Source: Fibrobacterota bacterium (GTDB lineage Bacteria; Fibrobacterota; Chitinivibrionia; Chitinivibrionales; FEN-1185). From it: a stretch of DNA of 64,000 nucleotides. Where the stretch lies: positions 112,308-176,307 of the forward strand of contig PLWQ01000036.1 in NCBI GenBank assembly GCA_003165595.1, read 5' to 3'. Both the position numbers and the translations under genes were made by a program. Positions 18,962 through 24,049 of the stretch are shown one piece after another. The notes under the pieces were generated by a model that worked only from the letters and a program-made list of their open reading frames with translations, had not been told where the DNA came from and did no database searches. The stretch's first letter is position 1. Every line of letters begins with the position of its first letter.

Positions 18962-19048
18962 ATATTAATAGGCGGAAATCTCTTCCGCCGGCAGGCACAG
19001 GGACGAAACAAGCTTGCCAGATCTCTTGTTCCAACATGGACGTTGGTT

Positions 19049-20260
19049 ATGAGAATCAACAGCAACATCTCCGCAATGGTCACGCAGGGCGCACTGTATC
19101 AGGTGGGCAATGCGATGTCCAAATCCCTCCAACAGCTATCAACCGGGCTCAGGATAAACAGCTCTTCAGACGACGCCGCAGGCCTCGGCGTTTCCGAGAA
19201 CCTGCGCGCCCAGTACAACGGCATGAATCAGGCTATCAGGAACACCCAGGACGCGATCGCAATGTTGAATATCGCGGACGGTGCCCTGAGCGAGGAGGGG
19301 AGTATCCTGCAGAGAATGCGGGAAATAATCATTCAGGCGAAAAACGACACCTACACATCCACCGAGCGCTCGTATATGTACCAGGAGTTCTCCAGCGACA
19401 TGCAGGAGTTGGACAGGATTGACAGGACTACGAATTACAACGGAATGACCATTTTCGCCGATCCGGCGAATAATCCGGCGGTGAATGGAGATGAGCTGTA
19501 CCCAGTGAATACCGCCACGGCTCCAGACGAGGCCAATCACGCCAACACGGTTTTTGCAAATCCCGCTGAGGGAATTTTCGGGGCCACCGAACTATCTAGT
19601 TCGAATCATTTCAATATGATGATCGGCCAGAACTATACCGCGCAAGACGCCGCCGCATACAATAATGCCGTTATCCTCGGCGCATCCCAGAATTCATACG
19701 AACCATCCGCGCCGGACATGGAGACCATTCAATTTGGTCAGATGGATGCCAACGGCATTCTTAATCCGGGGCCGGGGATACAGGATATTTACAGTTTTGT
19801 GACAAGCTTCGATATGCATTCCAGCTTTGCGGATCCGAAGTTTAACGCATACGATTTCACCATTGATCATTACATGACCGACAACGGCGACCCTAACAAC
19901 CATGATGAGAATGTTCAGAAGAAGTTGGATTTCCTTTTAAGACTTATTGACGACACGCCACTCCCGGCTGCGATGACTGCCAACACCTTTCAAGGACGGG
20001 ACAATACCACGGGTATCCCTCGGATCAACCAGATGAGGGCCTACATCGGCGCTACCACCAATCAATTGCAGCATACCCTAAACAACCTGATGAATCAGTC
20101 CACAAATACTCAGGCCGCCGAATCAACGATTCGAGACGTGGACTTTGCGCAAGCTACCTCGACGTTCGCAAAGAATCAAATCCTCATGCAGTCCGCTACG
20201 GCAATGCTTGCCCAGGCCAATTCTCAGCCAAAGGCAGTTCTGCAATTACTCAAGTTCTAA
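19049..20260 (+). CDS. fliC: Flagellin
   Basis: 403 aa from ATG 19049. Conserved N-terminal D0/D1 (MRINSNISAM, QLSTGLRINSSSDDAAGLG, LRAQ...NTQDAIAMLNIADGAL) and C-terminal D1/D0 (AAESTIRDVDFAQATSTFAKNQIL, ending QPKAVLQLLKF) frame a 200-residue variable surface region that looks unlike D2/D3 domains I know. The TLR5 and self-assembly helices are intact, so it should build a filament. No strong ribosome site precedes the ATG. No other flagellar gene is in the window. A RiPP-like cluster follows on the same strand, with the kinase ATG 125 bp after this stop. Confidence 0.95.
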   Translation: MRINSNISAMVTQGALYQVGNAMSKSLQQLSTGLRINSSSDDAAGLGVSENLRAQYNGMNQAIRNTQDAIAMLNIADGALSEEGSILQRMREIIIQAKNDTYTSTERSYMYQEFSSDMQELDRIDRTTNYNGMTIFADPANNPAVNGDELYPVNTATAPDEANHANTVFANPAEGIFGATELSSSNHFNMMIGQNYTAQDAAAYNNAVILGASQNSYEPSAPDMETIQFGQMDANGILNPGPGIQDIYSFVTSFDMHSSFADPKFNAYDFTIDHYMTDNGDPNNHDENVQKKLDFLLRLIDDTPLPAAMTANTFQGRDNTTGIPRINQMRAYIGATTNQLQHTLNNLMNQSTNTQAAESTIRDVDFAQATSTFAKNQILMQSATAMLAQANSQPKAVLQLLKF

Positions 20261-20385
20261 AAATCGGTCCGGTAGTCTTGTCTGATTTCTTGTTCCGCTC
20301 GGATGCGCAAGGTTATTTTTGTTGGTCTGCGGCGCAGAGACGCCTCCTGACGAATCTTCTCCCCTGCGTGTCTGAATGGCGAACA

Positions 20386-21231
20386 ATGGTAATTGAAATT
20401 GCCTCAATCCGTTTCGAAATTGATTTTGAAAGCGACACAGTTCACTTTTCCCCATATTTATCTCAATTCGTTGACAGATGCAAGACCGGCCCTGGTGTGG
20501 TTGATTGTACGATCGACTTCTCAAAAGGCGCGCTGGAATTCCCGAATCGCAAAGAGGCAACGACGATCAATGGGATTTCGTACCAGGAAATCTCCAAATC
20601 GGTCTTTCTGTTCGGGTTGCCCCGTGCGCTTTTCCGCGTATGTCTTGAGAGCCACTTTGCTGAGGTGCAATGCAAGGACGGGCGGGCAATTCCTGGTTTT
20701 ACTTTTGTGACGATTCTCAAGCTGCTTGCAAGTTTGCTTGTCCTTGACAAAGGTGGTCTCGCTCTTCATTGCTCCGCAGCATTCGACCACAGGAATGGGT
20801 ATGTTTTTTGCGGCAAATCCGGCAGCGGGAAAAGTACGATTGCGTTCGGACTTCGGCCCAGATATACAGTCCTGGGGGACGAATTCAATGCGCTTATCCC
20901 GTCGGGGGTGGCCGGGTACACATGCCACGGTTCTCCATTCACGAAACCGGAGAACGTGGAGCTCTGTTCCCCCGGATGCGCATTGGTCACCACGCTTTTT
21001 TTGCTTTCGCCGGGGGCGGAAGCTAGTTTTGCCGATAGCGGAAGCGTCGCGAGGTCATTGCTTCCAGTGATACTCGATAATGTGTTCACCTTTCCAACGT
21101 CGGACGAGTACGCCGGCAAGCTGTTCGAAAATACCGCTGCCCTTATCCGCGCTGTCCCCATAGAGGTGATCACCGATCGGGACTGCCTGGTTTCTCGGCT
21201 TCAGCGTAAGGAACTCAACAATGAAATATGA
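20386..21231 (+). CDS. HprK-like serine kinase of a RiPP cluster
   Basis: 281 aa from ATG 20386 (MVIEIASIRF); the frame stays open upstream to a TTG at 20278, but family members start near the EIASIRF strand. Walker A GKSGSGKST is at 143-151, preceded by GLALHCSAAF and followed by GDEFNAL, as in HPr kinase/phosphorylase relatives found beside lasso and other RiPP genes. The N-terminal 110 residues are not HprK-like. No HPr is nearby, so the substrate is more likely the precursor or another cluster protein. It overlaps the PqqD-like gene by 11 bp. Confidence 0.8.
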   Translation: MVIEIASIRFEIDFESDTVHFSPYLSQFVDRCKTGPGVVDCTIDFSKGALEFPNRKEATTINGISYQEISKSVFLFGLPRALFRVCLESHFAEVQCKDGRAIPGFTFVTILKLLASLLVLDKGGLALHCSAAFDHRNGYVFCGKSGSGKSTIAFGLRPRYTVLGDEFNALIPSGVAGYTCHGSPFTKPENVELCSPGCALVTTLFLLSPGAEASFADSGSVARSLLPVILDNVFTFPTSDEYAGKLFENTAALIRAVPIEVITDRDCLVSRLQRKELNNEI

Positions 21232-21487
21232 GAAGAACAAAAGTGTATCAGTCAAGAAGGTTGACAACGAGGTCTTTGCCTACAATAGGTCGACCGGAAA
21301 GATACACGCATTTAACGAAACCGGGTCTTTCCTACTTTCGGCAATGGACGAAAAGGTTTCACCGGAATCGATGGCGCCGGTCTTAGCCCGGGAGTATGAC
21401 GTCGATGAGAAGACAGCCAAAAAGGACATCGAAGAGTTCTTACAGGAACTGGCCATCAAGGGGTTGCTGAGTGAGTGCGACGACTAA
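21221..21487 (+). CDS. PqqD-like RiPP recognition element protein
   Basis: 88 aa. PqqD/RRE fold pattern: DNEVFAYNRSTGKIHAFNETGSFLLSAM (winged-helix start), VLAREYDVDEKTAKKDIEEFLQEL, then GLLSE. Stand-alone PqqD proteins bind the leader of a precursor peptide and present it to the modifying enzyme. It overlaps the kinase gene by 11 bp and the radical SAM gene by 17 bp, so the three are translationally coupled. The expected leader motif (YxxPxI) is present in the peptide gene at 22962. Confidence 0.85.
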   Translation: MKYEKNKSVSVKKVDNEVFAYNRSTGKIHAFNETGSFLLSAMDEKVSPESMAPVLAREYDVDEKTAKKDIEEFLQELAIKGLLSECDD

Positions 21488-22526
21488 GACGCCGGTTATG
21501 GACAAGTTTGTTGATCTCGGAAATCGACTCTATCCCACGGGCGCGTTCTTCGAGTTGACTCACCGATGTAACGGGAGATGTGAGTACTGCTATGTCCCGG
21601 ACAAGGAAAACGCGAAAGATCTTGACACAGCTTCTGTTCTTTGCGCCATCGACAAATTGTCTGACGCCGGCGTTCTGCATGTCACTTTCACCGGCGGCGA
21701 GATCTTTATCCGGCCCGACATCCTCGAGATTCTCGGGCACGCAATCGAACGGGAATTCTGGTTCGTGGGGCTCATGACAAATGGTACCTTGCTTACAAAA
21801 CAGCATATGGATTTTATCATAGATAACAGGCTCAGGCTTGGCGGCGCGGTCTCAATGACGGTGTTCTCGCATATTCCCGAGGTCAACGATTCTTATTTTG
21901 GAATTCAAGGAGATCTCTCAAAGATACTTGCCAACGGGGAATATCTGCAAAGAGGCGGCGTCAAGGTAGGCGCCAAGATAAATGTGATGGATTTCAACCT
22001 GGAAACCTTTATCGAAACCCACCAATTTCTTGCCGGCCGGGGGTTTCTTGTAATGCATTTTGTGGGGACCTTGTGCTATTCAACTCCGGGAAGCCCGAAT
22101 CTCAAAAGATATAATGAAAAGGAGTTTATCAAGGAGTATCTCAAGAGATTGCCAAATGATGATCTCCAGAAACGAAAGGATACTTTGGCGTCCAAATTAT
22201 CCGCTGCAAACGCCGGCGATTTCTGCGTTGGCCGGTCCACAGGGATTTGTATTGGACATACCGGAATAATCAAACCGTGCGTGGGATTCAGGGACTCCGG
22301 AACCTGCAATATTTTTGACAAAGGAAATCTCAGGGATATCCTTGTGAAGTCGCAATCAATTGCCGAGGCCAGAGCAATTTCACAAGAGGATGTTGCCAAA
22401 TGCAGGGAATGCCAATATCTCGCGTATTGCGCGCCCTGCCCGGCAGATATGAGGGCGGAGCATGATGATTTTTCCTCTCCTCCTTCAAAAACGTGCAACT
22501 GGGTTCACGCATTGCTCGAGGTCTGA
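21471..22526 (+). CDS. Radical SAM/SPASM peptide maturase
   Basis: 351 aa from GTG 21471 (ATG 21498 possible). CNGRCEYC gives the CxxxCxxC cluster at C33, C37, C40; FTGGEIFIRPD is the SAM-binding strand. The C-terminal ~110 residues hold a Cys-rich SPASM-like region (CVGRSTGICIGHTGIIKPC, CRECQYLAYCAPCP, KTCNW) for auxiliary Fe-S clusters. Such enzymes make thioether, C-C or other crosslinks, or epimerise residues, in ribosomal peptides. With the adjacent RRE protein and a three-Cys precursor, a sactipeptide/ranthipeptide-type thioether reaction is plausible but not proven. Confidence 0.88.
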   Translation: MSATTKTPVMDKFVDLGNRLYPTGAFFELTHRCNGRCEYCYVPDKENAKDLDTASVLCAIDKLSDAGVLHVTFTGGEIFIRPDILEILGHAIEREFWFVGLMTNGTLLTKQHMDFIIDNRLRLGGAVSMTVFSHIPEVNDSYFGIQGDLSKILANGEYLQRGGVKVGAKINVMDFNLETFIETHQFLAGRGFLVMHFVGTLCYSTPGSPNLKRYNEKEFIKEYLKRLPNDDLQKRKDTLASKLSAANAGDFCVGRSTGICIGHTGIIKPCVGFRDSGTCNIFDKGNLRDILVKSQSIAEARAISQEDVAKCRECQYLAYCAPCPADMRAEHDDFSSPPSKTCNWVHALLEV

Positions 22527-22534
22527 AGGGCAAA

Positions 22535-22978
22535 ATGGGAACAATTACAGGCTACATAGTCGGCAGCTGCCTCTTTGAGAATGCCGAAAGCGCAACGTTC
22601 TCAATTTTGGGAGATTCAATGAAACCGCTACTAAAGGAGGGTCAGAAGGTTTCTCTAAGACCGCTCGAAAAGGAAGAACGGCTTATCAGTGGGAATCTCT
22701 ACGCTTTCAGGCGCGGGCCTAACCTTGTTCTCCACCGGCTTATTTGTTACAGGAAGGGAAGTTATTTGTTTGTGGGAGACAACCGAATGAGTCCGGAACT
22801 GGTGGAAAGATGCGAGGTAGTGGGACGATGCGAAATTCGGCAGAATCCGATTCTACGCCTCATTATCACGGCCTTTAGCGTTGCAGCCTATACGTCTCCC
22901 TGCTTGAGGAAACCCCTATTCATGTTAAAGAACAAGTTGAATTCTCATATTGGAGGATTTTGTGAAGAAAAAGTATGA
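22535..22978 (+). CDS. S26-type serine peptidase without N-terminal anchor (candidate leader peptidase)
   Basis: 147 aa; GAAGGG lies just upstream of ATG 22535 (a GTG at 22493 inside the maturase gene is less likely). Box B ILGDSMKPLL places the nucleophile at S28; the next box reads LVLHRLI, placing His67 where bacterial enzymes have Lys, i.e. the Ser-His dyad of SipW/archaeal/ER signal peptidases. GDN (94-96) follows. There is no N-terminal membrane helix; a weak hydrophobic stretch lies at ~115-130. Probable role: cleaving or exporting the modified peptide. It overlaps the precursor gene by 17 bp. Confidence 0.8.
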   Translation: MGTITGYIVGSCLFENAESATFSILGDSMKPLLKEGQKVSLRPLEKEERLISGNLYAFRRGPNLVLHRLICYRKGSYLFVGDNRMSPELVERCEVVGRCEIRQNPILRLIITAFSVAAYTSPCLRKPLFMLKNKLNSHIGGFCEEKV

Positions 22979-23132
22979 TCCACCTAAGATTTTGACAGAT
23001 GAGGTTGCTGCTTCAACCCTCATGGCAGGCGGCATAGATCCAACTTACCCAACGGGGGGCTGTGATTCACCTGAAGTCGCCGGGGGATGTACGCCACAAA
23101 ACTGCACCCAGGGGTCAGGCCCGGCAAAATAG
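22962..23132 (+). CDS. Candidate RiPP precursor peptide (Cys/Gly/Pro-rich core)
   Basis: 56 aa from GTG 22962, chosen because GGAGG sits 5 nt upstream; a TTG at 22950 would put the ribosome site inside the gene. The leader begins KKKYDPPKILTDEV, containing YDPPKI, which fits the YxxPxI motif bound by RRE proteins. A Met-Ala-Gly-Gly at 21-24 resembles a double-Gly cleavage site. The presumed core (25-56) has Cys34, Cys43 and Cys48 in two GGC steps plus QNC, and five Pro. It is the last gene of the five-gene plus-strand unit, 17 bp inside the peptidase gene. Confidence 0.8.
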   Translation: MKKKYDPPKILTDEVAASTLMAGGIDPTYPTGGCDSPEVAGGCTPQNCTQGSGPAK

Positions 23133-23199
23133 TTCGTGGCTCCATCGCTCCTGACCAGGGTCATCTGGGCGCTGGCTGGGTGACCCCAGCACGAAAAGG

Positions 23200-23997
23200 T
23201 TACTTTTCTCTTTCGAACCTTTCAAACATTAGCCCCCACCGATCCCTCACAAACGCCATCTCCAGCATCACCTTCCTGACCATCACCGGTAACCGCCGGT
23301 ACACCCCCGGCCGTATCATCGGTGATAGCACCCTTGACCGCAGCCCCGGCTTCGGCAGCGGAATGTCCCGTTTGCAAACCTTTGCGTAGCGCGCCAGTAT
23401 CATCCCCACATACTCAACGATCCCAGTGCCCTTAGCTAACTCCCAGAATTTCTCCCACGAGAACCCGGCCTGCCCGCTGACCAGCGACACTTCCTCAAAC
23501 AGCGTGCCCCGCATTTCATAGGCGATATGGACGAGCGAATGACAAATCAGAATAAGCAGGCCGTCTTCGGGGCAGGGAATCACCTGCACAGTGCCCGTAT
23601 TCGTGCCGCGCGTGAACAGCTCGCGTGCCGGCAGCAGGAACCGCTGCGGATAGTTGAGCTGCCGGTGAAGCTCCACGTATAAGGCTGCGCCCGCGGTTTC
23701 ATAGGTGAAGGACATTTCGAAGGGCCAGTAATTCCGGTCGGGCCGCGAGCGAGGATGGTGCGAGAAATGCCGGGTTGCCTTCTCGAAATCTTCGGGCAAG
23801 AGCAACAGGTCCAGATCGAGCATCTTGCGCGCACGCATGTGTGACGCTAGGCCGGATGCAATGAGGTAAGCGCCCTTGATGGGCATGAACCGAACCGACA
23901 TCGCTGCAAATTCTTTTTCGAGGTCTTCCAGCGCAGCGGCGAACACCATCTGTTGCAGCGCCCATTGCTTTTCGAGAGAAACGGCGAGCGGCGTCAT
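23200..23997 (-). CDS. NTP_transf_5-type nucleotidyltransferase associated with the RiPP cluster
   Basis: 265 aa from ATG 23997 (a TTG just before is less likely). FMPIKGAYL and MRARKMLDLDLLL match the K-G...R-x-x-D-x-D pattern of the uncharacterised nucleotidyltransferase family often seen beside PqqD, HprK-like and lasso genes. ELHRQLNYP and GLLILICHSLVH are further family-like blocks. It is convergent to the precursor gene, 67 bp away, in the only other orientation, so it needs its own promoter. It may add a nucleotide to the peptide or to a partner, inferred by context. Confidence 0.8.
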   Translation of the reverse strand: MTPLAVSLEKQWALQQMVFAAALEDLEKEFAAMSVRFMPIKGAYLIASGLASHMRARKMLDLDLLLLPEDFEKATRHFSHHPRSRPDRNYWPFEMSFTYETAGAALYVELHRQLNYPQRFLLPARELFTRGTNTGTVQVIPCPEDGLLILICHSLVHIAYEMRGTLFEEVSLVSGQAGFSWEKFWELAKGTGIVEYVGMILARYAKVCKRDIPLPKPGLRSRVLSPMIRPGVYRRLPVMVRKVMLEMAFVRDRWGLMFERFEREK

Positions 23998-24049
23998 CAA
24001 AAGGTTCCGGGATACGCCGGGCCTGCGAACGGCGGGTATGCGTGAAGGG

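Follow-up and report, generated by a model that had tools for sequence, protein, structure and literature searches.

What would a bacterium make with a compact gene cassette that combines an HprK-like kinase, a PqqD-type recognition protein, a radical SAM enzyme, a signal-peptidase-like enzyme and a nucleotidyltransferase, and where might the product act? We addressed this question in a stretch of 64,000 nucleotides (the window) from a Fibrobacterota genome, in which a sequence-only reading had called a RiPP cluster. We favour, with moderate confidence, the view that the locus is a RiPP cassette of the kinase/RRE/S26-peptidase kind with a radical SAM enzyme in addition, and that it is dedicated to a single flagellin. 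The flagellin gene directly upstream was absent from the sequence-only reading and is the most informative feature of the locus.

Organisation of the locus

Open reading frames and family searches recovered all six genes at the positions and in the families called previously, within 3.6 kb. The features of the locus are as follows.

19031..19046, plus strand: proposed CsrA-type hairpin CCAACATGGACGTTGG, whose loop contains GGA, immediately 5' of the flagellin ATG
19049..20260, plus strand: long flagellin of 403 aa (Pfam Flagellin_N and Flagellin_C) with an extra central domain
20386..21231, plus strand: HprK/PEPCK-superfamily kinase with a Walker A motif, supported by an AF2 model; alternative TTG start at 20278
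21221..21487, plus strand: PqqD-type RiPP recognition protein (Pfam PF05402, 9e-15)
21471..22526, plus strand: radical SAM/SPASM peptide maturase (Pfam, 9e-18)
22535..22978, plus strand: S26B-type (Ser-His-Asp) signal-peptidase-like leader peptidase (Pfam S24/S26, 1.8e-5); alternative GTG start at 22493
22962..23132, plus strand: precursor peptide of 56 aa with a GTG start and a YxxPx[IV] leader
23028..23129, plus strand: predicted core GGIDPTYPTGGCDSPEVAGGCTPQNCTQGSGPAK after the putative cut at Ala22
23200..24000, minus strand: NTP_transf_5 nucleotidyltransferase-like protein, convergent (Pfam, 4e-16)

The kinase, PqqD, radical SAM and peptide genes show overlaps of 11-17 nt on the plus strand, and the peptidase gene overlaps the gene upstream or, if it starts at ATG, nearly abuts it. 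None of the cassette genes encodes an exporter. The proposed AT-richness of the genes was borne out for the cassette (46-53% GC against 56% in the rest of the window) and failed for the NTP_transf_5 gene (58%), while the upstream flagellin (51%) shares the drop. Recent horizontal transfer, which had been offered as the source of the low GC, is not supported: the tree of the flagellin and that of the radical SAM protein are congruent in their supported parts, and the cassette is lower in GC in several relatives too.

The enzymes of the cassette

The kinase is identified by its fold, since sequence matches are weak (ScmC at 7e-5, PEPCK below the cut-off): the AF2 model, with a pLDDT of 86, matches the structures of PEPCK (2e-7) and HprK (2e-5). 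Its Walker A motif reads GKSGSGKST, and residues K149, D165 and E166 are conserved. The PqqD protein scores 3e-10 against the NCBIfam model of lasso PqqD proteins, below the cut-off of that model. Both the CxxxCxxC motif of the radical SAM enzyme (CNGRCEYC) and its SPASM cysteines are kept in full-length relatives, and its best match among solved structures is SkfB (7e-27), which bears out its assignment as a peptide maturase. The peptidase is a distant match to Sec11 with S28, H67 and D82 invariant across 11 aligned sequences; in the NTP_transf_5 protein the KG and D62-x-D64 motifs are invariant.

The precursor peptide and its predicted cut

A gene for a small peptide lies 3' of the S26 gene in all 11 homologous loci where this position can be read, as expected of the RiPP precursor that the 56-residue peptide had been taken for. 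The peptides of the order are 53-80 aa long, and all 11 carry the leader motif YxxPx[ILV]. Exactly 17 residues past the leader Tyr stands an Ala in 10 of the 11 loci, replaced by Asp in G002. In these ten, position -3 before the predicted cut holds a small or aliphatic residue (A, V, L or M), within AGA, VGA, LSA, LQA, MHA, LRA, LNA or LMA. Such residues conform to the -3/-1 pattern known from signal peptidases and fit the neighbouring Ser-His-Asp peptidase. Cutting there would leave a core of 30-36 residues, or of 58 in G002, and most cores contain 3-4 Cys. More distant peptides vary at this site: the residue is Gly in L182 (genome G166) and Ala in L071 (Elusimicrobia), and the peptide of L080 (Nitrospirae) fits the cut rule with an offset of one. 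The reading of the locus as a RiPP cluster thus holds, because the peptide gene is kept and the radical SAM protein is closest to peptide maturases.

Distribution of the cassette

A search for the same neighbourhood elsewhere, as the sequence-only reading had suggested, recovered the cassette of kinase, PqqD, radical SAM, S26B peptidase and peptide in 11 further genomes, all from one Fibrobacterota order. In the resulting set of 12 genomes the gene order is kept as far as the contigs reach; the kinase, PqqD and radical SAM genes are present in all 12 and the S26 gene wherever the contig extends to it. The radical SAM proteins of these relatives are 29-37% identical to that of the window, so the recurrence of the arrangement with such diverged proteins excludes chance. 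The NTP_transf_5 gene adjoins the cassette on the opposite strand in eight of the 12 genomes; in G033 it is 5 kb distant, and in G025 it does not adjoin the cassette. In one relative (L028, G039) a single TAG interrupts the kinase frame in the MAG, which may be an assembly error or decay.

Elsewhere in the phylum, a single-sequence radical SAM search found one match, which was weaker and lacked the cassette. The scan of genome contigs yielded matches with an alignment query and none with a single-sequence query. A related kinase-PqqD-radical SAM-S26-peptide cassette occurs in another family of the phylum (L182), with no flagellin beside it; it adjoins an open frame that exceeds 2000 aa and has no assigned role. 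Radical SAM versions of the kinase/RRE/S26 machinery recur across several phyla, and we found no characterised one. At L080, L086 and L088 (Nitrospirae, Acidobacteria), PqqD, radical SAM, kinase and S26 genes stand beside large C25-peptidase (gingipain/PorU-like) proteins, and in L088 and L086 S26 and C25 apparently share one open frame. The window's own genome (G000, contig 6) carries another kinase/S26 pair; some 10 kb separate it from a PqqD/radical SAM pair, and polysaccharide-type genes lie nearby (L179).

Association with a long flagellin

In nine loci, including the window, a long flagellin of 380-411 aa lies directly upstream of the cassette on the same strand, and in G023 the kinase follows this flagellin directly on a contig that ends there. 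Flagellin and cassette are thus adjacent in 10 of the 12 genomes; G002 and G003 retain both, unlinked. Genomes of the order carry up to 19 flagellin matches each, and apart from the long one most are about 290 aa in length. Full-length orthologues of the long flagellin were found in the 12 cassette genomes, and a further copy in G020 ends at the contig end. The central domain of the long flagellin contains conserved motifs, and its profile, searched against 167 genomes of the phylum, detects the 12 cassette genomes and G020 and nothing in the other 154. The co-occurrence is significant by Fisher's test when shared descent is ignored (p 2e-17). In G020, whose contig ends inside the flagellin gene, no cassette was found. 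The restriction of the cassette to genomes with the long flagellin, usually adjoining it, suggests a role for the peptide on or with the flagellum.

Flagellin and cassette occupy at least three addresses: the coaD locus, a site by argC in the window and one by an epimerase gene in G039. We considered coaD as the sole address and rejected it, as G000 and G039 differ. Nine genomes without the cassette also lack the long flagellin at the coaD locus. Apparent intrinsic terminators follow the flagellin in some loci, so co-transcription with the cassette does not seem to be general. Neither Cys nor a leader motif occurs in the long flagellins of this group. The predicted structure of the flagellin (pLDDT 68, weak in its central part) matches only ordinary flagellins, and a structure search with it found no special fold for the central insert.

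The hairpin before the flagellin start resembles a CsrA site over the ribosome-binding region, and we propose it as such from its sequence. It occurs only once in the window's genome when up to one mismatch is allowed, and a CCAACAAGGATGTTGG-type hairpin also precedes the flagellin start in the other loci whose sequence extends to this point. The genome encodes CsrA and FliW, at sites other than that of the hairpin. Our search of open-access papers returned none linking RiPPs to flagellin, which is weak evidence of absence.

Comparison with known systems

The closest tested system is that of the linear polyphosphorylated peptides (LPP; PMC13381572, Nat Commun 2026), which shares four of the five enzyme types: a discrete RRE with a YxxP leader, an HprK-like kinase, an NTP transferase and a leader-cutting Ser-His-Asp peptidase of the archaeal signal-peptidase type. 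The YxxP-type motif is bound by the recognition proteins of lasso and LPP systems, and LppS cuts the LPP leader with help of its RRE by means of the same triad, shown to be essential (S29, H68, D93 against S28, H67, D82 in the cassette; PMC13381572). The description of LPP mentions no radical SAM gene, whereas the cassette lacks the MsbA-like transporter of LPP clusters; ABC-2 type transporters lie near the NTP gene in only two loci. The LPP leader is YxxPxVLxHQxIxFETxxS, of which the cassette peptides match only YxxPx[ILV]. A polyphosphorylated serine in the core is a further mark of LPPs. LPP clusters belong to Bacillota, often in capsule loci and with no flagellin reported, unlike the cassette of Fibrobacterota.

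The SynChlorMet cassette (NCBIfam TIGR04248-TIGR04251) likewise combines PqqD, radical SAM/SPASM and HprK-like kinase proteins. Its models score far below their cut-offs in the window (ScmE 81 of 400 bits, ScmC 22 of 125, ScmD 17 of 100), while a positive control, L095, passes those for ScmE and ScmC, and true SynChlorMet cassettes among the examined loci carry a second radical SAM gene. No open-access paper naming SynChlorMet was found, which is again weak evidence of absence. Filing the cassette under either system was rejected, as defining features are missing: given the SynChlorMet scores and the differences from LPP in radical SAM gene, transporter and leader, it is a variant that belongs to neither.

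In the pseudomycoidin/paeninodin lasso clusters (PMC9266682) a PqqD-bound peptide is tailored by a kinase and an NTP_transf_5-type protein, as proposed for the cassette. The cassette has a radical SAM enzyme and an S26-type peptidase where they have a cyclase and a B2 peptidase; family scans of the six genes and their neighbours found neither a lasso macrolactam synthetase nor a B2 protease. The sequence-only reading was mistaken in placing these families together mainly beside lasso genes, since LPP clusters and SynChlorMet cassettes hold most of them. Sactipeptide maturases of the SkfB/AlbA type are also radical SAM/SPASM enzymes acting on a Cys-containing peptide, with low identity to the cassette enzyme, from which they differ further in that its PqqD is separate and its partners are others.

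Proposed pathway and function

From homology and conserved anatomy we propose the following pathway. PqqD very probably binds the 56-aa precursor at its YxxPx[IV] leader, given the homology of PqqD and the conserved motif. The radical SAM/SPASM enzyme is then likely, at only slightly lower confidence, to modify the Cys-bearing core, most likely through thioether or other cross-links, with the prospects of a thioether evenly balanced. We lean slightly towards phosphorylation of the core by the HprK-like kinase and addition of a group by the NTP_transf_5 protein. That these two form a peptide modification path had been suggested before; by analogy it has experimental precedent in LppK of the LPP system (PMC13381572) and in PsmK and PsmN of pseudomycoidin (PMC9266682). 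The Ser-His-Asp peptidase probably cuts after Ala22 to release a 34-aa product.

The tie between this product and the long flagellin, on or with which it would act, is drawn from genomic association, and we regard a functional link as somewhat favoured. It might take the form of co-assembly or co-export with flagellin, or of attachment to the special central domain, which we think rather unlikely. The lack of an exporter in the cassette fits a product that leaves with flagellin or stays on it. That a radical-SAM-modified, phosphorylated peptide joins the filament as a new kind of flagellin decoration is a still more doubtful proposition. Counting against the flagellin tie are the cassette of G166 without a flagellin, the flagellin of G020 without a detected cassette, the absence of Cys and leader motif from the flagellin and the apparent terminators behind the flagellin gene in some loci.

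The peptide might instead be an ordinary secreted RiPP (a signal, metallophore or antimicrobial) whose only link with motility is common regulation or export through the flagellar type III system, flagellin being a neighbour and not a target. Related cassettes without flagellin in other phyla, the missing exporter and the apparent terminators that separate flagellin from kinase in some loci would all suit such a peptide; we nevertheless judge it unlikely, because one of several flagellins per genome tracks the cassette even when unlinked. Conserved synteny, in which the two were simply inherited side by side without sharing a function, would explain why the trees agree and why several genomes have the coaD locus or its neighbour in common, but it accounts poorly for at least three addresses, for retention of both in G002 and G003 and for their joint absence from the coaD locus elsewhere, and we consider it improbable. 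Equally improbable is that flagellin itself is the substrate of the enzymes, with the small peptide serving as a guide or accessory. FliB is a precedent for iron-sulfur modification of flagellin (PMC8598068) and the co-occurrence is strict, yet the leader motif and the cut site are on the peptide, and these flagellins contain no Cys.

We therefore retain, at moderate confidence, a RiPP cassette dedicated to one flagellin. The role of LPPs and paeninodins is not known (PMC13381572), and a cassette that follows one flagellin out of several in diverse genomes is a strong clue to the role of peptides of this kind. If the peptide does decorate or join the filament, flagellar modification would gain a new class, and RiPPs of the kinase/RRE/S26/NTP-transferase type a testable function.
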